A stretch of 64,000 bases of DNA from Armatimonadota bacterium (GTDB lineage Bacteria > Armatimonadota > DTGP01 > JAKQQT01): assembly GCA_036504095.1 (NCBI GenBank), contig DASXVS010000031.1, forward strand, positions 1 through 64,000. Reading direction: 5' to 3'. Below the pieces are notes generated by a model that was not told the origin of the DNA, did not search any database, and saw nothing but the letters and a program-made list of their open reading frames with translations. The translations under genes and the position numbers were made by a program. This document shows, piece after piece, positions 23,587-60,506 of the stretch. Each line of letters opens with the position of its first letter. The stretch's first letter is position 1.

Positions 23587-24360
23587 ATGCGAGCAATTAT
23601 TGTCGCTGCCGCATTGGCGGCGCTCACAGCACCAGCCTACTGCGCTGTGGTCGTGGACACCGGCGGTTTTGAAGGGTACGCTCTGGGCGCGTTGGCGGGC
23701 CAGAACGGCTGGACCCAGGTCAACGCCTTCGGCTCCGTCGACAGGCCGGTAGACATCGCCATCGGCCCAGGTGGCAGCAAAGTGATGGCGTTCGACTGCA
23801 CGAACGCCGCCGGAGAGCCCAATACCGAGGGATCCGTTCAGACGTCATTCGCCAACCTGACCGGGGTTGACCGCTACGCACGCGTTACATATGATCTCTA
23901 TCGAGACGGCGACGGCATTTACAACAACCTGTGGTGGTGGCCGGTTGGCAGCAATAACTGGTATGGCCTTCAGTGGGACAACGGGGCCAGCCAGCCCGCC
24001 AAAATCCTTCCATTCGGGTTCGGCGCACCGGATACGCCCATGCTTCAGAAGCAGTGGGTGAATATTGACCTCACATTCGATCTGGTGGCCGGCACCGAAG
24101 ACGCCTACATCAACGGGACGCTTCTTGCGGCCAACGTCAACGTGGGTACAGGCGAGTTCGCCGGCTGGTTCCTCGGTGATTCGTGCACGGTCGACCCCGC
24201 CCGCACGCCGAACGGCAAGGGCCAGAAGGCCTACGTGGACAATCTGCGGATCCTGGCGGGCAACACCCGGGGCGACCTGCAGCCCGTTCCCGAGCCAAGC
24301 AGCCTCGCGCTCCTCGCGGGCGGCCTTCTCCCGCTGCTCGGCCTTCGCCGCCGCAAGTAG
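23587..24360 (+). CDS. PEP-CTERM protein, DTGGFEGY family, copy 1
   Basis: This is an exported protein of 257 residues. It has a signal peptide (MRAIIVAAALAALTAPAYCA), a passenger domain opening VVVDTGGFEGYALGALAGQN and rich in Trp and Asn (probably a lectin-like beta-sandwich), then the sorting tail VPEPSSLALLAGGLLPLLGL ending RRRK. PEP-CTERM tails are cut by exosortase and linked to exopolysaccharide production; no exosortase is in the window. AAAGGAAAGAGGAG provides the ribosome-binding site. It is paralogous to 24625-25407 and 26899-27666. Confidence 0.9.
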   Translation: MRAIIVAAALAALTAPAYCAVVVDTGGFEGYALGALAGQNGWTQVNAFGSVDRPVDIAIGPGGSKVMAFDCTNAAGEPNTEGSVQTSFANLTGVDRYARVTYDLYRDGDGIYNNLWWWPVGSNNWYGLQWDNGASQPAKILPFGFGAPDTPMLQKQWVNIDLTFDLVAGTEDAYINGTLLAANVNVGTGEFAGWFLGDSCTVDPARTPNGKGQKAYVDNLRILAGNTRGDLQPVPEPSSLALLAGGLLPLLGLRRRK

Positions 24361-24376
24361 AGAAAAGCATCTTCCA

Positions 24377-24421
24377 TTCGGCATCCGGCCTTCAGGGTCA
24401 TCCTGAAGGCCGGGTGCCGAA
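24377..24421 (+). terminator. Strong terminator after PEP-CTERM copy 1
   Basis: TTCGGCATCCGGCCTTCAGG and its complement CCTGAAGGCCGGGTGCCGAA form a 20-position stem with one mispair and a five-base loop, followed by CGGCGTTTTGAGG. An almost identical terminator follows copy 2 at 25424-25468. Confidence 0.8.
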
Positions 24422-24473
24422 CGGCGTTTTGAGGGGCTTTCCGGCGCGTTGAAGACGCGATTCCAGCGTACGC

Positions 24474-24490
24474 TTGGCCCGTTTCTTGCA
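24474..24490 (+). promoter_or_regulatory. Sigma-54-type promoter of second PEP-CTERM gene
   Basis: TTGGCCCGTTTCTTGCA has GG (24476-24477) and GC (24488-24489) separated by ten bases. It is nearly identical to the elements at 23461 and 26804. Confidence 0.72.
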
Positions 24491-24624
24491 CCCGTATGGC
24501 ATGTCCGGCAGCGCAACTGGGCATTGCACGCCGCAAACGAATCAAGTACTCGCGAGATGGGCAGATGAGACCTGGCCACTGCCGCTCGGCGCGCCACTGC
24601 GTGTGCGCGCAGAAAGGACAGCGT

Positions 24625-25407
24625 ATGTTGCGCCAACTCTTCATTGCCGCCGGTGTGGCCGGCCTCCTTGCCATCGGAAGCGCCCACGCCGTTGTCATTT
24701 ACGACACCGGCGGTTTCGAGGGCTATGCCATCGGAGACATCGTTGGCCAGGACGGCTGGCAGAATGCCGGCAGTATCGGCCTGCCCGCTTCATGGACTTA
24801 CAACCCCGCGAAGATAGTCGCCGGTCCCGCTGGAGGCAAGGTCCTTCAGTTCGACAACATCGACAAGACCTATTCGTCCATCGACCGACCGTTCCAGAAC
24901 CTAGTCGGGACGTACAAGTATGGACAGGCCACGTTCGACTTCATGCGCGACGATGCGGCTATCTACAACAACTGCGACTGGTGGCCGTCCGGCGCGAACC
25001 CCTGGGGCGGCCTGGCGTGGGACCACGCGGCCGTTCCACCAGCCCTGATTCAACCGCACGGCGGCGGCAATGGCGAGACCCCGCAGCTGCCGAACACGTG
25101 GTACCACATCGTGATCCTGCATGACCTCATCAACGGCAAGGGATCCGCCTGGGTAAACGGCGCACTGGTCTGCGATAATGCCAGCATCGGTATGGGCAAC
25201 CAGTACAACGGCTGGTACTTCGATGACTGGAACACGGTCGATCAGGCCCGCACCCCGGGCGCGAAGGGCCGCAAGGGATTCGTGGACAATCTGTCCGTTT
25301 CCGCCGGCAACACTCTGAGCGACCTGCAGCCCGTACCGGAGCCCAGCAGCCTGGCGCTCCTGGCGGGCGGCCTTCTCCCGCTGCTCGGCCTTCGCCGCCG
25401 CAAGTAG
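24625..25407 (+). CDS. PEP-CTERM protein, DTGGFEGY family, copy 2
   Basis: At 260 residues this is close in layout to copy 1: signal peptide MLRQLFIAAGVAGLLAIGSA, passenger opening VVIYDTGGFEGYAIGDIVGQ, shared landmarks such as NNCDWWPSGANPWGG and NGWYFDDWNTVDQARTP, and the tail VPEPSSLALLAGGLLPLLGL plus RRRK. ATG 24625 is chosen for its AAAGGA site and the signal peptide; the frame extends upstream to 24496 through the promoter, which is unlikely to be translated. The function of the passenger is unknown; the fold may bind glycans. Confidence 0.9.
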   Translation: MLRQLFIAAGVAGLLAIGSAHAVVIYDTGGFEGYAIGDIVGQDGWQNAGSIGLPASWTYNPAKIVAGPAGGKVLQFDNIDKTYSSIDRPFQNLVGTYKYGQATFDFMRDDAAIYNNCDWWPSGANPWGGLAWDHAAVPPALIQPHGGGNGETPQLPNTWYHIVILHDLINGKGSAWVNGALVCDNASIGMGNQYNGWYFDDWNTVDQARTPGAKGRKGFVDNLSVSAGNTLSDLQPVPEPSSLALLAGGLLPLLGLRRRK

Positions 25408-25423
25408 AGAAGAGCATCCTCCA

Positions 25424-25468
25424 TTCGGCATCCGGCGTTCAGGGTCATCCTGAAGGCCGGGTGCCGAA
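25424..25468 (+). terminator. Strong terminator after PEP-CTERM copy 2
   Basis: Nearly the same stem-loop as at 24377-24421 (one arm has GGCGTTC for GGCCTTC), followed by GGCGTTTTTGG. The duplicated terminator shows that gene and terminator were copied together. Confidence 0.8.
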
Positions 25469-25557
25469 CGGCGTTTTTGGGGGCATCCCGGCGGGCCCCA
25501 AATCGTGGTTTCTAGGAGGCAGGCATACATCTTGGCAGTCTGACAAGCAGGCATATA

Positions 25558-25574
25558 TTGGCATCGTTTATGCC
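25558..25574 (+). promoter_or_regulatory. Probable sigma-54-type promoter of third PEP-CTERM gene
   Basis: TTGGCATCGTTTATGCC keeps GG (25560-25561) and GC (25572-25573) at ten-base spacing but differs in the -12 block (ATGCC). It is weaker than the other three, but it stands in the same relative position, about 100 bases before the gene. Confidence 0.5.
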
Positions 25575-25656
25575 GCTTATGCGTCAGGCGCTCAAACACT
25601 GGAGCGCCGGCGGCCGCTGAACACCGCGGCCGGATTGACGAGAAAGGGGCGGGAGC

Positions 25657-26688
25657 ATGTCCAAGATTGTCATACGGGCGTCGATTTTGACCGCATTGCT
25701 GGGCGCGACACTGGCGATTTCGGCACGGGCGGTCGTGTATACTCCATTCACAGATCCTCATCCAGTGATGAGCGGCGGAACGATCGGGTTCGCGTATGCG
25801 GGCGACAAGTTTGTCGGCTCGGTTCAGGGCGACGGCATGGGCCAGCTTTATTCCACCGACCTGAACGGTGGCAGCGTCCAGGTGTTCGCGCCGGGTGTCA
25901 GCCTGGCGCCGAGCCTTTCCAGCGAGCACTTTGTTGCCGCCTCGGTGGGCGCCGGCGGGTTCGCGCCGCGGGACCTTTTCGTCGCCGCAGGCAATTCCGT
26001 GGTGCACATCACGCATGACGGCCTTTCGTCGAGCATTCTGACCAGCGGACTCACGGGTGATGTCCGAGGTATCCTGTTTGACACGATCGGCACGTTCGGC
26101 GGCGATATGCTGGTAACCACCCACGCCGGGGCGGTATATCGGGTGAACAGCGCCGGCGTCGCGACGCCGCTGGCCTCAACGGGTGAGGACACCGAGGGCC
26201 TGGACATCGCGCCCATCGGAGCCGGTTTTGGCGCGTACGATGGTCAACTTGTGGTCGCCTCCGAGGGGTCCGGGCTGCTGAGAGCCATTTCCACGGCCGG
26301 AGTGGTGAGCGTGTTGAATCCCAACAGCCCGATCGGCGGGGTCGAGGAGCTGTCTTTCGTGCCGCTGACGCTTGGGCTGAGCGGCAACCCCGTGGAGGGG
26401 ATGTACGGGGCCAACTACACGCCCAACGTGGTGAAGGCCGGCGCCGGCCAGTTCGCCGGGATGCAGGGCGACATCATCGTGACCAGCGAGACCGGCCACG
26501 GTGTCTACCGCGTTCACTGGAACGGCACGACGTTTGAGAACAGCCTCGTCGGGAGCTTCCCGAACCAGCCGGAGGATGGCATCTTCGTGACGGCCGCCCA
26601 TATCAACGGCGGAGTGCCGGAACCGTCCAGCCTCGCGCTGCTGGCCGCCGGTTTGCTGCCGCTCCTCGGCCTTCGCCGCAAAAAGTGA
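25657..26688 (+). CDS. PEP-CTERM protein with probable beta-propeller domain
   Basis: This exported 343-residue protein is unlike its three neighbours in the passenger region. After a signal peptide (MSKIVIRASILTALLGATLA), repeated blade-like segments follow (GQLYSTDLNGGSVQVFAPG, GDMLVTTHAGAVYRVNSAG, GQLVVASEGSGLLRAISTAG, GDIIVTSETGHGVYRVHWNG), suggesting a beta-propeller. It ends in a typical VPEPSSLALLAAGLLPLLGL tail with RRKK. The ligand is unknown. AGAAAGGGGCGGGAGC lies before the ATG. It sits between DTGGFEGY copies 2 and 3, so the array is not a simple tandem. Confidence 0.88.
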   Translation: MSKIVIRASILTALLGATLAISARAVVYTPFTDPHPVMSGGTIGFAYAGDKFVGSVQGDGMGQLYSTDLNGGSVQVFAPGVSLAPSLSSEHFVAASVGAGGFAPRDLFVAAGNSVVHITHDGLSSSILTSGLTGDVRGILFDTIGTFGGDMLVTTHAGAVYRVNSAGVATPLASTGEDTEGLDIAPIGAGFGAYDGQLVVASEGSGLLRAISTAGVVSVLNPNSPIGGVEELSFVPLTLGLSGNPVEGMYGANYTPNVVKAGAGQFAGMQGDIIVTSETGHGVYRVHWNGTTFENSLVGSFPNQPEDGIFVTAAHINGGVPEPSSLALLAAGLLPLLGLRRKK

Positions 26689-26701
26689 CGCAATCGGCAA
26701 T

Positions 26702-26749
26702 CCGCACGCGGCATTCAGGCACGAAACGGGCCCCGAATGCCGGGTGCGG
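26702..26749 (+). terminator. Terminator after the propeller PEP-CTERM gene
   Basis: CCGCACGCGGCATTC and GAATGCCGGGTGCGG pair with one mispair around a GC-rich loop, followed by ATCCGCTTTTGG. Confidence 0.65.
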
Positions 26750-26803
26750 ATCCGCTTTTGGCGGGCCTGAGCGGCCGAATCGCCGTACGCCGGCCCCATC
26801 CGC

Positions 26804-26820
26804 TTGGCCGGTTTCTTGCA
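26804..26820 (+). promoter_or_regulatory. Sigma-54-type promoter of fourth PEP-CTERM gene
   Basis: TTGGCCGGTTTCTTGCA has GG (26806-26807) and GC (26818-26819) ten bases apart, matching the elements before copies 1 and 2 almost base for base. Confidence 0.72.
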
Positions 26821-26898
26821 CGCAATTACGCGAGGAAGAAGCGTTACGGCCTGGGCCGCCGCGGCGCCGTGTCATCTCATACCGAAAGGAGATCGATC

Positions 26899-27666
26899 AT
26901 GCGCTTTTCAATCTTGGGCGCGGCACTCGCCGTTGCCCTCCTGGGGCCGTCGGTGCGCTCAGCGGTTATCATCGACACCGGCGGCTTTGAAGGCTACACC
27001 CCTGGTAATATCATCGGCCAGCAAGGCTGGGTAAAGGGTGCGGCGGCATTCGGCACCACCACCCGGCCGGTCACGGTGGCAAACATCGTCGCCAACCCCA
27101 CCGGTTCCGGGCAGGTCCTCGAGTTCAACAACGTTGCTGCCGGCCAGACGGAAATCCAGATGCTGTTCCCGAACCTCACCGGCACGTACAAATTCGCGCG
27201 CTCGTCGTTCGATTACTACCGCGACGGCGCCGCCACGGCCAACAACCTGGACTGGTGGCCGAAGGGCAGCAACCCTTGGTGGGGCATCGCCTGGGACAGT
27301 CCGGCGGCGACCGGTGGTTCCATCGTGCCCGTGTTCAACGGAGTCGACGGGAGCACCGGCTCGGTTCCGCAGATTCCGAATCAGTGGATGCACATCGAGC
27401 AGCTCTGGGATCTTGAGACCGGAGACGTGTCCGCGTGGGTTAATGGAGCGTTGGTTTCGGACAAGGTGAACCAGGGCACCGGCGCGTTCAACGGCTGGTA
27501 CATCCGCGACTGGCATACGGTCCTAACGGCCCCGGGTCATAAGGCCTATGTGGACAACGTCGTGCTCCTGGCCGGCAACGACGTTGGCGCCGTGCCGGAG
27601 CCATCCACCCTGGCGCTGCTCGGCGCCGGCCTGCTCCCGCTCCTCGGCCTGCGCCGAAGGAAGTAG
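26899..27666 (+). CDS. PEP-CTERM protein, DTGGFEGY family, copy 3
   Basis: 255 residues: signal peptide MRFSILGAALAVALLGPSVR, passenger opening VIIDTGGFEGYTPGNIIGQQ, with NNLDWWPKGSNPWWG and NGWYIRDWHTV matching the two siblings, and a tail VPEPSTLALLGAGLLPLLGL ending RRRK. The start has the site AAAGGAGAT. It is convergent with the isomerase-end fragment and separated from it by a long simple-sequence hairpin. A decayed PEP-CTERM end at 29687-29859 faces the intact isomerase in the same convergent way. Confidence 0.9.
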   Translation: MRFSILGAALAVALLGPSVRSAVIIDTGGFEGYTPGNIIGQQGWVKGAAAFGTTTRPVTVANIVANPTGSGQVLEFNNVAAGQTEIQMLFPNLTGTYKFARSSFDYYRDGAATANNLDWWPKGSNPWWGIAWDSPAATGGSIVPVFNGVDGSTGSVPQIPNQWMHIEQLWDLETGDVSAWVNGALVSDKVNQGTGAFNGWYIRDWHTVLTAPGHKAYVDNVVLLAGNDVGAVPEPSTLALLGAGLLPLLGLRRRK

Positions 27667-49234: not shown

Positions 49235-50053
49235 GTGAAGTTTTCGAAAATGCATGGGTTGGGCAACGATTTTATACTGGTGGACGATCTGGCGAGGGCG
49301 ATCCCGGACGACAGCCTGCCGGAACTGGCCGCTCGCTTGAACGACCGCCACTTCGGCATCGGCGGCGACGGGCTTATCCTGGTTCGACCATCCGAGGTCG
49401 CGGATTTCAATATGCGTGTCATCAATTCGGACGGGTCTGAGGCCGAGATGTGCGGCAACGGTATCCGCTGTTTCGCCATTTTCCTTCACGAGCACGGATT
49501 GACGGAAAAGAATCCCGTCCGCGTCGAGACCGGCGCCGGCGTCCTGACCCTGGACGTCCACGGCTCGAACGTTACGGTTGATATGGGCGAACCGCGCCTT
49601 GACCGCGCCGCCATCCCAATGGCGGGTGAGGGGACCAATTTCAACGTCCCGTTGACCGTCGAGGGCCGCGAGTTCTTCGTCAACGGCGCCAATATGGGCA
49701 ACCCGCACGCTGTGATCTTCCTGGACACCCTGGACGGCTTCGCCTGGGAGCGTTATGGCCCCCGGATTTCAACCCACTCCCTCTTCCCGGCGGGCACAAA
49801 CGTCCACTTCGTTGAGCAGACGGGCCCGAACGAGGTCAGGGTCAAGGTCTGGGAGCGCGGCGCCGGCCCCACCCTGGCTTGCGGAACCGGCGCCTGCGCG
49901 ATCACGGTTGTTGCCGCCAGCCTCGGCAAGACCGGACGGAAGGTGAGGGTCAATCTCCCCGGCGGCCCGCTTCAGATCGACTGGCGGGCGGACAACCATG
50001 TCTTCATGACCGGCCCCGCCGTTGAAGTCTTCATCGGCGAAATCGAAGTGTAG
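49235..50053 (+). CDS. dapF: Diaminopimelate epimerase
   Basis: It converts LL- to meso-diaminopimelate for lysine and peptidoglycan. 272 residues from GTG 49235 (VKFSKMHGLGNDFILVDDLA), chosen for its GGAGGA site; the open frame upstream crosses a repeat. The two catalytic cysteines are in EMCGNGIRCFA and LACGTGACAITV. The last 30 codons (49962-50053) recur at 51381-51472 and 52217-52303, downstream of accessory genes. The intact gene's own end (VEVFIGEIEV) differs from the VTVFDGEI of both extra copies. Confidence 0.96.
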   Translation: MKFSKMHGLGNDFILVDDLARAIPDDSLPELAARLNDRHFGIGGDGLILVRPSEVADFNMRVINSDGSEAEMCGNGIRCFAIFLHEHGLTEKNPVRVETGAGVLTLDVHGSNVTVDMGEPRLDRAAIPMAGEGTNFNVPLTVEGREFFVNGANMGNPHAVIFLDTLDGFAWERYGPRISTHSLFPAGTNVHFVEQTGPNEVRVKVWERGAGPTLACGTGACAITVVAASLGKTGRKVRVNLPGGPLQIDWRADNHVFMTGPAVEVFIGEIEV

Positions 50054-50142
50054 CCGCGCACGTGGGGCGCCCGACGGCTGGGGCGTGTGCCTGCTATACT
50101 TACGGAAAGTTTGGTGACATCGAATCAGAGGAGGGGCGCAGA

Positions 50143-50465: not shown

Positions 50466-50545
50466 ACCTCGACAAGGAGATGTTCGTGTTACACACCTAT
50501 CCAACCGCGACCAACCTTGCGCACTCCGTCGCGGGCAAGAGGTTT

Positions 50546-51307
50546 ATGATGCGGCCCGTGTGCATGGCGTTGTCCGCATCCATTGCGATACTGCTGCTTT
50601 CGTCGTGTTCCAGCCCGTCCTTCAATGAAGCCCAAGCGCTAGGTGAGGCACAGAAGATCGTAAAGGAGCAGTTGAAGAGCCCTTCCACCGCGCAATTCTC
50701 TGAAACTCGAATCCTAGATCGGACCAAGAAGGCGGACGGAAAGCCAACTTATCTTGTTTTGACGACAGTCGATGCCCAAAATAGCTTCGGTGCAATGCTC
50801 CGTTCCCACTTTCTCGTAGTTATACGGTTCGAGAACGAGAAGCACGACCGATACCTTTCGTATAAGGGTCGGTCGACGCTGGAAATCAGGGGAGACACGC
50901 CAACCGAGGAGGAGATAGCGGTAGCTAAGGGCATGAACGACTGGTCTGATGAGGCCGCGAAAGATGTTGGAGGCACAACCGTCCCAGCGGTCAAACCTTC
51001 GCCACCCTTAACCGAGCGGCCCCCCGAACGTGCAAAGTGGGCGGATTTGGAGTCAGTTGTCCAGGCTGATCTTTCAAAGCGATTCGGCGGGCACAAACGC
51101 GTGTGGTTCTTGCCGGACGAATCAGGTGCGGGCGGCCGGATTATGACCTTCTGTGTCGAGGTACCCGATGGTAGTACTCGCAAGGTAACGGAGGAGTTTC
51201 GCGCCGATCCGGGCCAAGACAATCTATCTGAGGCGGAGAAGAAGCGCCACTGTTTCTACTCCGTGGAAGTTGGTCCGCCAGCGAGCAGCCTTCCCGCCAA
51301 TCCATAA
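50546..51307 (+). CDS. Lipoprotein of unknown function in cassette A
   Basis: About 253 residues. A lipoprotein signal (MMRPVCMALSASIAILLLSS then a lipobox with CSSPS) is clear. The mature part starts with an amphipathic helix (EAQALGEAQKIVKEQLKSPS) and a domain containing SPSTAQFSETRILDRTKKAD, a pattern seen in small secreted proteins of mobile DNA. A proline-rich linker (PAVKPSPPLTERPPERAKWA) leads to a second domain. ATG 50546 (or 50549) is preferred over 50480 because of the signal peptide. Its base composition is lower in G+C than dapF's. Confidence 0.75.
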   Translation: MMRPVCMALSASIAILLLSSCSSPSFNEAQALGEAQKIVKEQLKSPSTAQFSETRILDRTKKADGKPTYLVLTTVDAQNSFGAMLRSHFLVVIRFENEKHDRYLSYKGRSTLEIRGDTPTEEEIAVAKGMNDWSDEAAKDVGGTTVPAVKPSPPLTERPPERAKWADLESVVQADLSKRFGGHKRVWFLPDESGAGGRIMTFCVEVPDGSTRKVTEEFRADPGQDNLSEAEKKRHCFYSVEVGPPASSLPANP

Positions 51308-51599
51308 ACCGGGTTATTCCGGTTGGACCCATCTGTTGCTGGGGTATTCAGCGCCCAAACGGAGGACCGTTTTGGTTAGTGCGGCCCGCTTCAGATCGAC
51401 TGGCGGGCGGACAACCATGTCTTCATGACGGGCCCCGCGGTCACTGTTTTTGATGGCGAGATCGAGGCCTAACGGCACCAGGCGTGCTTGCGGAGTGGGC
51501 ATTTGGATACTAGCAAGTTGACATAACGCGGTGAACCGCGACAAGCTGACGTATCACCAGCTACCTCTTCTGCAATGAGCTTCTACGTGAGGTCCGACG
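51308..51599. other. Gap holding dapF end copy 2
   Basis: Apart from the repeated dapF end at 51381-51472 it contains no gene. A GTGAGGTC ribosome-binding site serves the next gene. Confidence 0.6.
51381..51472 (+). repeat. dapF 3' end, displaced copy 2
   Basis: The first 49 bases (51381-51429) are identical to 49962-50010 inside dapF; the rest diverges mainly at synonymous sites until a TAA. The encoded end reads [18 protein letters not shown] then [10 protein letters not shown]. No upstream dapF sequence is attached. It marks the right boundary of cassette A. Confidence 0.93.
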
Positions 51600-52157
51600 A
51601 TGACTGAAACGTTCTTCTGCGTAAACCGGGCATGTCGCAAACAGATTGACTCAACCGCCACCCACTGCCCTTCCTGTGGGGCAGACCAATCCCCTCCCTG
51701 GGTGAATCCGGCTTCGATCCGAACGCGTACGTATACTTGCCCGTCCTGTGGCGGTGTGTTTCCTGCACACGCGGAGTCATGTCCGCGCCGTGAATTCGGT
51801 CAATCACGGGAAGACCCCTCCAGGCCGTTGGGTTCCCGGGCAGCTTCGCCAGGTCGGGGTTTGGGGCCTGTCCACTCGGGAGCTGCACTTACTCCGCTAC
51901 CTGACCCGGCATCACTCACCCCTGCGTGCCAAAGGAAACTGATCACCACGATGTGGTCCATTTGGCCGTTCATCTGGATCATGTTGCTCACCAGCCCTGG
52001 CGACAAGATGATTATGTCGTTTGGGTTCGCTCTTGATGGCGTCGCGATCATCATAGCGATCATCCTCGTGGCTTCAAAGAGCAGGATTGACAATGCCCAC
52101 GGGTGGGCTAAGATTGCGCTAGAGATCGTAGTCTTCCTCTTCGTGGCCAACACCTAG
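51600..52157 (+). CDS. Zinc-ribbon membrane protein in cassette B
   Basis: 185 residues. The N-terminal 65 residues carry cysteine pairs of double zinc-ribbon type (CVNRACRKQIDSTATHCPSC, and TYTCPSCGGVFPAHAESCP). After a linker, two membrane helices follow (MWSIWPFIWIMLLTSP and LDGVAIIIAIILVASKS), and perhaps a third at the end. Cytoplasmic zinc ribbons on membrane proteins often contact partner proteins; the role here is unknown. The only gene between dapF end copies 2 and 3. Confidence 0.75.
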   Translation: MTETFFCVNRACRKQIDSTATHCPSCGADQSPPWVNPASIRTRTYTCPSCGGVFPAHAESCPRREFGQSREDPSRPLGSRAASPGRGLGPVHSGAALTPLPDPASLTPACQRKLITTMWSIWPFIWIMLLTSPGDKMIMSFGFALDGVAIIIAIILVASKSRIDNAHGWAKIALEIVVFLFVANT

Positions 52158-52216
52158 CGCTGTTGACGACTAGTGTAATGCCGCCAATGGACCCTACGAC
52201 ATTCAATACCGGACTT

Positions 52217-52303
52217 CCGCTTCAGATCGACTGGCGGGCGGACAACCACGTCTTCATGACCGGCCCCGCCGTCACCGTTTTTGACGGCGAGATCGATGGC
52301 TAG
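52217..52303 (+). repeat. dapF 3' end, displaced copy 3
   Basis: This matches the dapF end again (CCGCTTCAGATCGACTGG onward), ending TAG. It encodes [20 protein letters not shown] then FDGEIDG. It differs from copy 2 only at synonymous sites until the last residues. It marks the right boundary of cassette B; the long RNA follows. Confidence 0.93.
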
Positions 52304-52456
52304 TACAGGTTCGTCAGGCAACCTTATACAGGGTCTTCCGAGGTCAAGCGTAACCCCGATTTGAGCGTGAAATTGGGCTGAAATGGCTCAAATTCGATGC
52401 CCACTTCTTGACACCTCCCGGCCCTTGAAAAGCATGTTTTCCGTCGCGGGACCCGC

Positions 52457-52462
52457 TACAAT
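52457..52462 (+). promoter_or_regulatory. -10 box candidate for the long RNA
   Basis: TACAAT with no convincing -35 hexamer. It predicts a start near 52469. Confidence 0.4.
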
Positions 52463-52468
52463 ACTTTT

Positions 52469-53545
52469 CATCAGAGTTCAAGGCAAGGTTTTGATCGTGC
52501 CGCATGGGGAGGTTGTGGAACCCCTTTACCCGCGAACCGCATGAACGGGATGCAACTCTGACCGAGGCGTCGGGCTGATGGGATAGCCCACTCCGCAAAT
52601 CGATGAAGGCCGGGGGTATCGCCTGGAAAGGGCCCGGCCGGCGCAGCCGAAAGGCCGCGACGGTCGCAAGTCCGGAACAGGGAAGATAGCCCGGCTGGAG
52701 AAGAGCGGAGAGCCTCCTGCCCCCGCTACCCGAAAGGGTTGGCGGAAGGGTGCGGTCCTTTCTTGAGACCGGGCACTGCCTGGTTGAAGGAACGGGGCGA
52801 TCCGCCGAAATGAAGGCGAAAGCCATCAGGACAGCGGGTCCGGCGGTACGGGCAAAGCGCTTCAGCGCTTTGGAGGGCGGAGCGTCCTTAACCGGGAAGA
52901 GCGAAAGTTATCACCCGGGCAGTTCGCTCCTGGTCGTAAAGCAGAAATGCGGTGCGACTGGTGGGATGTTGGACCATCATCTCTGGCTAACGCCGGGAAT
53001 GTGGCTTGGCAGACCTGCCCCGCGGCGAAAGCCAGTCGTACAATCGAGGCCTCGACCGTTGGATGCGAAAGCATCGCGATAGGGGACCGCCGGCGGAACG
53101 CCACCGCGAAAGCGGAGGCGTCTCCGATCCGAAGGAGGCGAGGGCGATTCCGGGGGATGTGCCGCGACCGGCAACGGTCCGGCAACAGCATCACCCCAGC
53201 GATGGGCGATACCGGGCTCCAACCCGGGCAACGGGGTTGGAATCAAGGGCGCCCATGCCGATTCCGGTTTGCGCCGGAATTAAGGCCCGAAGACCCGCAA
53301 GGGTCGTGAACGGAATCTGGAACCGGGCCGGAAGCGCTCCCTCGGGAGTGTGAAAGGAACCGGAACCGAACTCGGCGAACCGGGGGAGTTCATCTTTCGA
53401 GGTGGATGACCCGGGGAATCGGGAACGGACCGAAAGGACGGACCCGTTCTCCGCCCGTCTCAACCGGAGAGCACGATCAAATGCGGCCACCGCAAAGCGG
53501 CCGCGGCACGGGGCCGGTCCGAAAGGGCCGGCCCCCTGTTCGTTT
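52469..53545 (+). ncRNA. Large structured non-coding RNA, about 1.08 kb, family unknown
   Basis: The region has no plausible protein but is dense with short GC-rich helices capped by GAAA-like loops: CCGAAAGG, ACCCGAAAGGGT, GATGCGAAAGCATC, CCGCGAAAGCGG, CCGAAGACCCGCAAGGGTC, GACCGAAAGGACGG and others, at roughly one per 60-100 bases. A TACAAT box precedes it and a perfect terminator hairpin ends it. The length and the ornate helices recall giant bacterial RNAs such as GOLLD, ROOL or OLE, but I do not recognise a specific consensus. Signatures of RNase P RNA, tmRNA, group I/II introns and rRNA were looked for and not seen. Limits are approximate. Confidence 0.65.
53510..53545 (+). terminator. 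Terminator of the long RNA
   Basis: GGGGCCGGTCC, GAAA loop, GGGCCGGCCCC, then TGTTCGTTTTGG. An eleven-position stem with one G-T pair. Confidence 0.75.
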
Positions 53546-53750
53546 TGGCGGCGCGCCCGTGCAACCCTTCACCGGGATACTGTGGGCACTGAGGCATCGG
53601 GAAGATGCATACAGCATTTGCCCGGTGGCCAACCTCCTTCCAGACCGAGTGGTCGCGCTTGTCTCCTCCCGGCCGCCTTGCATACAATGGCCCGTTGTCG
53701 ATGCCGGTCCCTGTCGGATGCGGCACTTTCCTGAGGAGACCTTTCTGACG

Positions 53751-56492
53751 ATGAGAATGAACCGAACAGTGAGGGCGCTGGCTGCTGTAGCGCTCATCAC
53801 ATCCGCCGCCAGGGCAGACACGGTGTATCTTCGCCGCTATCAACGGGTGGAACCGTACAGGGTCACGCCGGTGCAATGGGGTGACAAGTCCTACACCTAT
53901 ATGGATGCGGCCGATACCACACTGGATTCGCGCCACCCGGACGACAGCTTCGGCGCATCGAAGGCCCTCACGCTCGAACCCCGACAGCGGAACGTTGTGC
54001 TCATTCAGTTCGGCCAACTGAACCGGGCAATAGACCGGCGCTCCCGCATCACCGACGTGAAACTGGTCCTTCACCCCGTGCCGGGTCGCTTCACGAAAGA
54101 CGTCGACATCACCCTCCGGCGCATATCCACCGAGTGGCGTGACGGCGGCGCCGACGGCCACCCGATGTACTGGACTTCGACATGGAACCAGGCGCTCAGC
54201 AGCCCTCGCGCGAATGGGGTGGGCTGGTCAAAGCCGGGTGCGCAGGGCGGATCGGACCGACGCAACGACCCAAGCCTCACAACCGATACATCCGTGGGCT
54301 ACAGCGTGGCCACCAACACCTGGACTATCACCGGTCCGGGACTGGTGGAGGACGTCGCATACTGGTTCGGCAAGGCGTACAAGAACTTCGGCTGGGCCAT
54401 CGAAATGCAGAAGCCGGACGCCGCCCGCGGCCCCGTGCAGGTGTACAGCTCTGATGTGATGGAGGCGGATCTGCGCCCGGAACTGGTGGTGACCTTCGAA
54501 CCGATGCTCAACGAGGGCGAGCAGAAGGGCGTTGACCTCAACGTGACGTTCATCGCGCGCACACCGCGCTACCTTCGCTATCACGATGATGGCGTTAAGA
54601 GCTACGAGCGGAAGGCATACCGCGACGACAATCCGGGGATTATGAAGTTCCCGTTGAACGGAGACACAAAGAAGTGGCCGGATAAGGGCGAAGTCCTCAC
54701 TTATACGGCGACCATCAAGAACTCCGGGTTTGACAGGTATCGTGGCCCGGTGGATTGGGAGTGGCGTTACAACGGCCGGCTGTTGAAGAAGGGTGTGAAA
54801 CAGGTCGAGCTGGATGCGGAGCAGACGGCGACGGAGTCCATCCAGATGCCGTGGATCGGCGACCTTTCGGACATCCGGGACGAGAAGCTGACGTTTGAGA
54901 TCGATCCCAGCGACAGGATATCCGAGATCACGAAGAACAACAACCTCGAGAGCCGCTACATCAAGGCGCGTACGTGGAAGTATTGGGTGGAGCGCGATGC
55001 CTATGAGTATGGCAAGCAGTTCCTGACGGCCTACGGATCGTATTCGTACGAAGACTATCTGAAGTGGCACGAGCACATCTGGAACGAGACGTACCTGGAC
55101 AAGTCCCGGTTTGACGGGCTGGCGCCGGATGGAAGCCTGCAGCGCGTCGCTCTGGACGATTTCGAGATCGTGCCGACCGGGCGCCTGAGCGGCGGCATCC
55201 ACCGGTTGGACGACAAGCCGGACTTCCATTGGGACGGCGAATGGGGCACCGAGTGGTTGAAAGGCGACCAGTTGAAGGATGCCGCGGCGGTGAAGAACGC
55301 GCAGAACTTCCTCCGCGGACAGCGCATCTTCCTGGAAGGTTCACTCATCCATGAGGCCAGCCACCAGGTGTTGGGGGCGTTCGATGTCTACTGGTCCAAC
55401 ATCGAGCCACCTACCCTGACCGAACCGGGCAAACAGCACGCCAAGGACGGCGGGCAATACTATGTAACGCGTGGTGATATGTATGCCTACTCCGGACTGA
55501 TGGGCGGCGACGACACGCGGCCAAACGACCAGTACACCGAGGGCACAGGCCTCTATGCAGGCATCGATGTGCTGGGGTTCAACTCCGACACACCGTACCG
55601 CAACGGGTTCTATGGTGAATGGCAATATGACCTGCCGCGGTCCATTTCAGTGCGGCTGCTGGCCGCGGATGGGGAACCGATCCCGTACGCAAAGGTGAAA
55701 ATCTGGCAGTTTAGCGGGATGAAGATCACGGACGACAACGTCGTGGCGGAAGGGCTGACAGCCGACGCGAACGGCGTGCTGAAACTGCCCGACCAGGATT
55801 CCGGTGAAGCCTCGGACGTGACGACCGCCACGGGACACACGATGCTTAAGAAGAACCCGTTCGGGCGGATCGATGTCGTGGGCTCCAACACCCTGCTGAT
55901 GCTCAAGATCGAAGGGTTCGAGCAGAAGGACTACCGATTCGTGCGGACCGTGGATCTGAACCGGGCGTACGCGGAGGGATACCACGACGCCTATATCGAG
56001 GACGTGGGAACACAGATTTCACCAACGAAGGTGGACTGGGCGACGAACCTCGCCAAAGGAAAGGCTGTCCAGTCGGTCTTGAACCCCGGCGAGGCCGCAA
56101 AACTCACGGACGGTGACCCGGAAACCACCTGGAACGGAGGGCCCGCGCCATCGGGCAGTTACATGCAGATCGACCTTGGCGCGCCCGTACCGGTGGCGGC
56201 CATCCGGCTGTTGCAGAGCGCGTCGTACGGTCAGTTCTTTCAACGGTTCAAAATCGAGGCCGCCGATGACGCTTCGTTCCGGACCGGAGTGACCGAACTG
56301 AGCCGGCAGTTCCCGCTGAGCTTCGCCAAGGCGATGAGCGATGACCGCGATATCGACCCGGCCAGCCCGGCGATACATTGGGTCACTTACGGCGCACGTC
56401 CGACGACGGCGCGTTACCTTCGGATCACGTGCCTGCAGAACACCGACGGCGTGGCGATGTCGGAGATTCAGGTGTTCGGAGCGGCGCGGTAG
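53751..56492 (+). CDS. Large secreted HExxH protein (putative zincin) with DNRLRE and discoidin parts
   Basis: 913 residues from ATG 53751 (signal MRMNRTVRALAAVALITSAA). In order: a DNRLRE-like segment (DAADTTLDSRHPDDSFGASK, near 30-210), a CARDB/Ig-like domain (LTYTATIKNSGFDRYRGPVD), and a central domain with YGSYSYEDYLKWHEHIWN and LIHEASHQVLGAFDVYW. HEASH is an HExxH zinc site and the following Asp may be the third ligand. Then a beta domain (ISVRLLAADGEPIPYAKVKI) and a C-terminal discoidin-like domain (YMQIDLGAPVPVAAIRLLQS). It is a paralogue of 58497-60506. Probably a surface protease or glycan-targeted peptidase; the family was not recognised. Confidence 0.75.
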   Translation: MRMNRTVRALAAVALITSAARADTVYLRRYQRVEPYRVTPVQWGDKSYTYMDAADTTLDSRHPDDSFGASKALTLEPRQRNVVLIQFGQLNRAIDRRSRITDVKLVLHPVPGRFTKDVDITLRRISTEWRDGGADGHPMYWTSTWNQALSSPRANGVGWSKPGAQGGSDRRNDPSLTTDTSVGYSVATNTWTITGPGLVEDVAYWFGKAYKNFGWAIEMQKPDAARGPVQVYSSDVMEADLRPELVVTFEPMLNEGEQKGVDLNVTFIARTPRYLRYHDDGVKSYERKAYRDDNPGIMKFPLNGDTKKWPDKGEVLTYTATIKNSGFDRYRGPVDWEWRYNGRLLKKGVKQVELDAEQTATESIQMPWIGDLSDIRDEKLTFEIDPSDRISEITKNNNLESRYIKARTWKYWVERDAYEYGKQFLTAYGSYSYEDYLKWHEHIWNETYLDKSRFDGLAPDGSLQRVALDDFEIVPTGRLSGGIHRLDDKPDFHWDGEWGTEWLKGDQLKDAAAVKNAQNFLRGQRIFLEGSLIHEASHQVLGAFDVYWSNIEPPTLTEPGKQHAKDGGQYYVTRGDMYAYSGLMGGDDTRPNDQYTEGTGLYAGIDVLGFNSDTPYRNGFYGEWQYDLPRSISVRLLAADGEPIPYAKVKIWQFSGMKITDDNVVAEGLTADANGVLKLPDQDSGEASDVTTATGHTMLKKNPFGRIDVVGSNTLLMLKIEGFEQKDYRFVRTVDLNRAYAEGYHDAYIEDVGTQISPTKVDWATNLAKGKAVQSVLNPGEAAKLTDGDPETTWNGGPAPSGSYMQIDLGAPVPVAAIRLLQSASYGQFFQRFKIEAADDASFRTGVTELSRQFPLSFAKAMSDDRDIDPASPAIHWVTYGARPTTARYLRITCLQNTDGVAMSEIQVFGAAR

Positions 56493-58496: not shown

Positions 58497-60506
58497 CTAC
58501 TCCGGCGCCATCTCAAGCGTGAACGTGGCCTCCTCGCGGTGGCCGCGCGCGTATTCCACCACGAAGTCCGTGATCGGCAGGAAGCCGTAACGCCACGCTG
58601 CGCCATCCTTGGCGCGGACCAGAAACAGCCCGTTGTTGCCCACCACATCGATGTGCCCGAATGGATTCGGCTTCAGCGTCATCCCGGTGGCTGTCGTGAA
58701 CTCATTCTTGACCGGGCGGTTAGCCAATACCAGACGCCCCTGGGCGTCCGTGGTGCCCGTCTGGATCGGATCATCCGCGATGCCGCCGTCATGCTTCTGG
58801 TACACGATGACCTCAGCGTTGGCCAGCGGTTTGCCTGCAACCGTCAGCGAGAGGGTGTTCCGCGTCGGAACCGCATAAAGGTATTCACCGAAGTAGCCTC
58901 GCCTCTTCCCATAGGTGAGCTTCATGCCGGCGACGTCGATATTGGCATAGGCCGGCGCGGTGTTGGGGCGAATGTCGCCGCCGCCCATCATGCCGCCGTT
59001 GGGCTGGCTGAACGGCTTCCCGTTCACCTTGTTGGCCTGCGCCGCAAGGTCCAGGTTGTAGTCATCGATGATTCCGATCTGGTGAGTCAGTTCGTGGTCG
59101 AGGGCCCACATGTAGGTGTTCGCGAGGTTCCGGTACTCGGTGGCGCTGCCGGTCGGGTACTTCCAGGAGCCGTCGTATGTACCGAACGCCGGGCCTTGCT
59201 CCACGTCGTCGGTGATCTTGTCCACGACGACGATCCGGTCGATCCGAACCGAGGTCGGAGCGCCGTTCGGCGCGAAGTCGTACCGGCTGTGCTTCATAAT
59301 GCGGTTCATGTTGTCCACGGTCGCGCCGCGGAGCCAGTCCTCGTAGGAGAACGAACCGTAGTAGTTGTTCACGCCATCGACGAGTTCAGTCATCCCCTTC
59401 TCGCAAAACGCGTCCAGGGTATAGGCGTCGGTGTTGAAGGTGAGCACGTTGTTCTTCCGGGTGATCTCGTCAAGGGTGTTCCCGGTATCGACGCGCGCCT
59501 CGAACGGATAGGCTCCCTGCTTCCAGTTCCAGGGCACGTTAACCGTTGTTTCCTGGCGTGGCTTCAGCGCCGGCACGCGTGCTTTCTTGACGAGCTTTCC
59601 ATCGATTCTGCACTCGAACTGCGTCGCTTTGGACGCGTTGCGTCCAACGTTGCGGATGTGGACGCCGTAGGATACCTTCTCGCCCGCGGAAGGCCAGTGT
59701 TTGGCCTCGGCTTCGCCCGGCACCATTTCGGGATAGCCGTTCTCGTACTTGGGGAAATATCGTCTGTAACGCGGTGTTTGCTCCGCGTAGGTCACGGTGA
59801 GGTCGGGACGATCGAGGCTCGACAGGAACCACTTCAACGGTTTGGCGGCCTCGAACCGGGCGTTGTCCAGCCAGAGCTTGTAGCTGTAACCGCCGGTGTC
59901 CGCATGGACCTCGAAGCTGGCCAGGTGGCGCCAGTCGAATCCAGTGTCAGCCTGCAGCCTCCAGCCTGCGATGGAGGATCTTGCCGTGGCATCGGCTCCT
60001 ATGGGCAGCCGCACCTCCACCCAGTCCTTCAGTGCGCCGGAGAGGATTCCTCCGGGGCTGAACTGGCGGCCCGTTTTCGGGTCCGTTCCCCCGTACTGCG
60101 CCGCGCGGCCCTGCATATCGTGGAAGATGAACCAGGGATCGCTGCCGCCCCAGCCGTTGGCGTTTTCAGATTTCAGGGAGACCCTGAACTCGGTCGCCTT
60201 GGACACATCGAGGTCCAGGTCCTTGGTGTCCGGGAAATAGACCCAGGCGTCGAATCCGCTGCCCGTATCAAACAAGATGGAGCTGTCGCCGGTCGTCTTC
60301 ACAGCCTTGTCGCCGGTGATGGTGTTGAAATGCTCCTGGTCCGTGGTACCGTAGCCCCAACGGCTGGTGAGGCGGGGCTCCGTGAACTCGCCGGCGATGA
60401 ATGCTCCCGCGCCGCGGCCTCCGTTGGGACGTGCGCAATATCCGGCGCGGTCCAGCAAGGCGAGAACGGCGAACGCAAGGGTGAGTGATCTACCTGTACG
60501 GCTCAT
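58497..60506 (-). CDS. Secreted HExxH protein (putative zincin), paralogue of 53751-56492
   Basis: 669 residues with a signal peptide (MSRTGRSLTLAFAVLALLDR). A beta-sandwich region (about 40-230) precedes a CARDB-like domain (VSYGVHIRNVGRNASKATQF). The central domain, YGSFSYEDWLRG then ALDHELTHQIGIIDDYN, has the HExxH zinc motif with a nearby Asp, followed by GGMMGGGDIRPN. The C-terminal carboxypeptidase-regulatory-like domain (LSLTVAGKPLANAEVIVYQK) and PNPFGHIDVVGNNGLFLV match the larger paralogue (PFGRIDVVGSNTLLML). The two proteins define one family in different domain contexts. Confidence 0.78.
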   Translation of the reverse strand: MSRTGRSLTLAFAVLALLDRAGYCARPNGGRGAGAFIAGEFTEPRLTSRWGYGTTDQEHFNTITGDKAVKTTGDSSILFDTGSGFDAWVYFPDTKDLDLDVSKATEFRVSLKSENANGWGGSDPWFIFHDMQGRAAQYGGTDPKTGRQFSPGGILSGALKDWVEVRLPIGADATARSSIAGWRLQADTGFDWRHLASFEVHADTGGYSYKLWLDNARFEAAKPLKWFLSSLDRPDLTVTYAEQTPRYRRYFPKYENGYPEMVPGEAEAKHWPSAGEKVSYGVHIRNVGRNASKATQFECRIDGKLVKKARVPALKPRQETTVNVPWNWKQGAYPFEARVDTGNTLDEITRKNNVLTFNTDAYTLDAFCEKGMTELVDGVNNYYGSFSYEDWLRGATVDNMNRIMKHSRYDFAPNGAPTSVRIDRIVVVDKITDDVEQGPAFGTYDGSWKYPTGSATEYRNLANTYMWALDHELTHQIGIIDDYNLDLAAQANKVNGKPFSQPNGGMMGGGDIRPNTAPAYANIDVAGMKLTYGKRRGYFGEYLYAVPTRNTLSLTVAGKPLANAEVIVYQKHDGGIADDPIQTGTTDAQGRLVLANRPVKNEFTTATGMTLKPNPFGHIDVVGNNGLFLVRAKDGAAWRYGFLPITDFVVEYARGHREEATFTLEMAPE

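Follow-up and report, generated by a model that had tools for sequence, protein, structure and literature searches.

What does the non-coding stretch of about 1 kb at 52469-53545 encode? The original prediction had read it, within the window (the whole 64,000-nucleotide stretch of DNA analysed here), as a large, discrete structured RNA of unknown family in which no known hallmark is recognisable. This reading is partly supported. The large, discrete structured RNA stands, but the statement on hallmarks does not, as SRP RNA is recognisable at the 5′ end and in the two terminal strands; "unknown family" holds for the ~885-nt interior only and not for the SRP-derived ends. Judged from its sequence, the 1-kb RNA almost certainly has SRP RNA ancestry, and we regard it as an SRP RNA paralogue because it combines an Alu domain, including the pseudoknot, with the same helix H1 as the organism's own SRP RNA. 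As a whole, the explanation that we consider reasonably probable is that of an SRP RNA gene paralogue that would dock on the ribosome through its Alu domain and carry a new body instead of Ffh, the body being known from one sequence.

The locus was confirmed as a non-coding, strongly structured and terminator-ended element. Internal open reading frames on both strands reach at most 160 aa, overlap one another and have no Pfam match, which agrees with the predicted non-coding character and for which a protein-coding reading was dropped. The predicted strong terminator was recovered as a GC-rich 11-bp stem with a GAAA loop (53510-53535) followed by CTGTTCGTTTT. The promoter claim is only half supported because, although TACAAT is present in the sequence, the promoter scan gave no −35 partner and hence no sigma-70 −35/−10 pair there; this box would put the transcription start near 52469. 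The base composition is 36% G, 28% C, 22% A and 14% T. The minimum free energy of the whole stretch is −549.6, compared with −473.8 in 40 dinucleotide shuffles (z = −8.4); 300-nt windows inside it give z values from −1.8 to −4.9, and the flanks are near 0. The minus strand of the region folds too (z = −5.1). Counting stems of 4 bp or longer, the plus strand has seven GNRA hairpins, with 0.8 expected and a maximum of five in 1000 shuffles, and the minus strand has none, in line with the many helices with GAAA-type loops noted earlier.

The covariance search against Rfam found no family at the gathering threshold for the element. GOLLD, ROOL, OLE and group II introns, which the original prediction had set aside, indeed gave no match at that level in the window and none at E ≤ 10 in 52469-53545, and the same was true of RNase P RNA. 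At a permissive threshold the sole notable match was RF01854 (large bacterial SRP RNA) at 52495-52637, where the alignment is good over the Alu part only; its score of 30.3 bits lies under the 60-bit gathering score because the rest of SRP RNA is missing. The features of the element are collected in Table 1.

Table 1 Positions of the SRP-like parts, the body and the borders of the 1-kb RNA
Feature	Position	Strand	Basis or remark
TACAAT, −10-like box	52457-52462	+	Sequence; scan without −35
Leader	52469-52489		Homology-set ends
H1, 5′ strand, TTTGATCGTGC	52490-52500	+	Same 11 nt flank/start own SRP RNA; pairs with 53471-53481
SRP Alu domain: H2 GCAT/ATGC (52502-52505/52550-52553), H3 with loop L2, H4 with loop L1.2	52495-52569	+	R2, RF01854, BLAST
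Pseudoknot (five-pair, loop-loop), L2 side, TGTGG	52514-52518	+	Alignment columns 20-24
Pseudoknot, L1.2 side, CCGCA	52537-52541	+	Alignment columns 43-47
Helix-5-like stem, 5′ strand (CTCTG, GAGGCG); ACCGAGGCG common to canonical SRP RNAs	52556-52569	+	Alignment and fold
Multi-branched body in place of distal helix 5 and S domain; many GNRA-capped hairpins	52570-53455	+	Folding
Helix-5-like stem, 3′ strand (CGTCTC, CGGAG)	53456-53469	+	Fold
H1, 3′ strand, GCACGATCAAA	53471-53481	+	Same sequence follows own SRP RNA
Trailer and terminator	53482-53545		Homology-set ends
Intrinsic terminator (11-bp stem, GAAA loop, T-rich tail)	53510-53545	+	Terminator scan

By homology, a bacterial SRP Alu domain makes up the first ~75 nt. 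A covariance model of this domain built from 19 SRP RNAs of the phylum, with the 1-kb RNA left out (R2), finds it at 35.7 bits (E 3.3e-8, 104 kb searched). A DNA search of 60 related genomes returned a single match, in the nearest relative G001 (72% over 100 nt, E 3.7e-6); the matched place is the SRP RNA of that genome, and the match extends from upstream of the mature 5′ end through the Alu domain to the first helix 5 strand (GACCGAGGCGYCGGGCTG). Local alignment of the 1-kb RNA with SRP RNA scored 50, and 200 shuffles gave at most 31. When the 1-kb RNA was included in the Alu model, exactly two Alu domains were found in the whole genome, those of the canonical SRP RNA and of the 1-kb RNA. 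When the Alu part is held in the SRP-like fold, 3 of 505 kcal/mol is lost, with the pseudoknot not yet counted. The UGU motif of the domain is UUU in the 1-kb RNA, H4 contains one C·A pair and the inner part of H3 differs from that of SRP RNAs, so that the Alu fold may be weakened.

Bacterial SRP Alu domains are characterised by five L2-L1.2 loop pairs and by helix H1, which stiffens the junction (PMC8137916). All five loop-loop pairs are standard in 20/20 aligned sequences, including the 1-kb RNA (columns 20-24/43-47), and two of the five show double changes across the alignment. The 1-kb RNA has U-A where SRP RNAs have AU, GC or CG (mostly A-U), and U-G in place of the C-G found in the others. 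The covariation check proposed earlier, run on the Alu part against SRP RNAs, thus revealed a pseudoknot kept through compensatory change. In the organism's own canonical SRP RNA (L034:4870-5136) one L2/L1.2 pair is changed as well, to A-U for G-C, and this RNA scores 134 bits, below the 166 bits of the G001 SRP RNA.

H1, the closing helix of large bacterial SRP RNA, is also present in the 1-kb RNA, and exactly the same two strands (TTTGATCGTGC/GCACGATCAAA, 11 bp) enclose the own canonical SRP RNA. The 11-mer occurs only twice in 64 kb, at 52490-52500 and 53471-53481, and most H1 pairs reach P ≥ 0.97 in the unconstrained ensemble of a 992-nt stretch. SRP RNA homology sets the mature ends at ~52495 (T52495) and ~53476 (A53476); between the homologous ends the 1-kb RNA measures ~982 nt, compared with 267 nt for the own canonical SRP RNA.

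Between the helix-5 strands lies a branched body of ~885 nt with no Rfam match, which folds at z = −7.6 (52577-53454) and in which a search for internal duplications found only short, weak repeats. The S domain (GGAA loop, CAGG/AGCA symmetric loop, Ffh site) is absent: the S-domain model R3, run with filters off, gave at best 7.2 bits with the core skipped, against 61-63 bits for canonical SRP RNAs and 61 bits for the own canonical copy. A normal 267-nt SRP RNA exists in the same genome and is the only place in it where an S domain was found. The genome has one ffh; a second, sub-threshold match was read as FtsY.

We found no relatives of the 1-kb RNA among 291 genomes of the phylum, phages and plasmids, and viral contigs searched with four patterns gave no match. 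An origin from a phage or plasmid was dropped as neither matched. The Alu model detected the domain in 143/291 phylum genomes; the score of the 1-kb RNA in this search is raised by its own place in the model, whereas its R2 score is unbiased. The 1-kb RNA passed the same strict filters, and therefore an equally conserved relative should have shown up. The class is represented by three genomes only, so the 1-kb RNA may be restricted to a genus or species. Second Alu domains in relatives were dropped as homologues, being duplicated or fragmented SRP RNAs or chance matches. Those of G270 (L048/L049) and G272 (L045/L051) are extra SRP RNAs, each genome having two SRP RNA genes, complete or almost so, that are either real duplicates or the product of mixed bins; that of G002:C382 is the beginning of an SRP RNA truncated where the contig ends, that of G253 lies within apparent coding sequence, and the second RF01854 matches of G012 and G017 are weak. 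Five matches in genome contigs of actinobacteria and Brevundimonas to the Alu pattern specific to the 1-kb RNA scored at most 16.9 bits with R1 and were taken as chance. So were body matches of 25-40 nt in 11 other genomes (E ~1e-3 per genome, 291 genomes), mostly to the terminator hairpin.

Several other explanations would also account for SRP-like ends around a new interior. One is an alternative, expanded SRP RNA whose S domain has diverged strongly but still binds Ffh, serving only some clients or conditions. It would fit the SRP architecture and ends and has the single Ffh as an available partner; additional helices are known to be tolerated in eukaryotic SRP RNAs (PMC4605306). Against it, no part of SRP RNA is more conserved than the Ffh site, which is absent here, and the S-domain motif is not above noise, so that we consider this reading unlikely. 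A decaying duplicate, with its interior replaced by inserted DNA and no present function, would agree with the weakened UGU motif, with the occurrence of the RNA in one genome only and with the adjoining dapF tail repeats, which suggest insertion activity. However, a dead copy should not retain a perfect 11-bp H1 across 980 nt, and the intact five-pair pseudoknot with its compensatory change, the strongly folding body, the strand-specific GNRA hairpins and the terminator all speak against decay, which makes a pseudogene improbable.

The size, the many GNRA loops and the branching resemble those of large ornate RNAs, and H1 could be a processing stem shared with SRP RNA. The element might then be a new RNA machine (such as a ribozyme, RNA cage or scaffold resembling OLE, ROOL or GOLLD) in which Alu and H1 form a processing or stability cap without ribosome binding. 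Such a cap would not need the pseudoknot and the helix-5 base, yet both are kept, and we give this idea little credence. Far less credible still is cis-regulation of the secreted HExxH peptidase gene at 53751-56492, with the element as its long 5′ leader. This gene is on the same strand and ~200 nt downstream, but the strong terminator and a promoter-like site at 53659-53688 lie in between, and the G001 orthologue of the gene has no such RNA upstream.

For the SRP RNA paralogue that we favour, we envisage that the SRP RNA gene was duplicated and that the copy retained the H1 precursor stem, the pseudoknotted Alu domain and the helix 5 base, whereas its S domain, the part that binds Ffh, would have given way to ~885 nt of new structured RNA. 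The 1-kb RNA would be transcribed and then processed at H1 as in SRP RNA. Its Alu domain probably docks at the ribosomal factor site by the dock-and-block mode described for the bacterial SRP Alu domain in B. subtilis (PMC8137916), and the body may carry or recruit something other than Ffh, or simply occupy ribosomes. In eukaryotes, Alu RNPs and BC200 illustrate that an Alu domain without an S domain acts on translation, there via SRP9/14, which bacteria lack; primate Alu RNPs inhibit translation (PMC8185352). By analogy with the logic of these RNPs, ribosome docking or occupancy could regulate translation in trans. We put forward only tentatively that the 1-kb RNA is a trans-acting bacterial counterpart of the Alu/BC200 RNPs, which would regulate translation or scaffold a new ribosome-associated RNP. 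If so, the Alu domain of SRP RNA, which is among the few RNAs of nearly all cells, would be reusable in bacteria as a ribosome-targeting module. Such an RNA would also offer a defined handle, through ribosome co-sedimentation and pseudoknot mutants, on the function of a large RNA, which OLE-type RNAs do not have. To our knowledge, Alu-domain derivatives without an S domain are known from eukaryotes only, and our literature search, which covered few subscription journals, found no long SRP-derived bacterial RNA lacking the S domain.

The 1-kb RNA shares H1, the H2/H3/H4 Alu domain, the five-pair L2/L1.2 pseudoknot and the start of helix 5 with large bacterial SRP RNA (RF01854; B. subtilis scRNA type). 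It differs in its ~982-nt length and ~885-nt new body, compared with ~260-270 nt and an S domain with the Ffh site, and in being a second copy beside the canonical one. Like the 7SL-derived primate Alu RNA and BC200, it has kept the SRP Alu domain, lost the S domain and gained unrelated sequence, and by analogy it may be ribosome-directed. In contrast to them, it is closed by H1, with the new part inserted inside the SRP frame and not appended; it is bacterial, has no SRP9/14, is about five times longer and is of independent origin. Extra helices also enlarge yeast scR1 and other expanded SRP RNAs, but scR1 (~520 nt) keeps the S domain and is the sole SRP RNA of the cell. OLE, ROOL and GOLLD have a similar size class, high folding and GNRA loops, whereas the 1-kb RNA does not match their Rfam models, has SRP parts and lies in no phage location that we could see.

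The 1-kb RNA begins ~160 bp past the last of three copies of the dapF 3′ end (49962-50057, 51381-51476 and 52212-52307), which have an exact 26-bp core. Between these copies lie short segments carrying a lipoprotein-like ORF (50480-51307) and a zinc-ribbon ORF (51600-52157). The arrangement looks as if DNA had been inserted more than once at the 3′ end of dapF; no integrase was seen nearby. The 1-kb RNA is absent beside both the dapF end and the peptidase gene of G001. The proteins encoded at 53751-56492, which has CARDB and F5/8 type C domains, and at 58497-60506 (minus strand) are two related secreted HExxH-type proteins with several more paralogues elsewhere in the genome. Further upstream, 23587-27666 contains a run of secreted proteins, each with a C-terminal PEP-CTERM-like PEPSSLALLAGGLLPLLGLRRRK motif.
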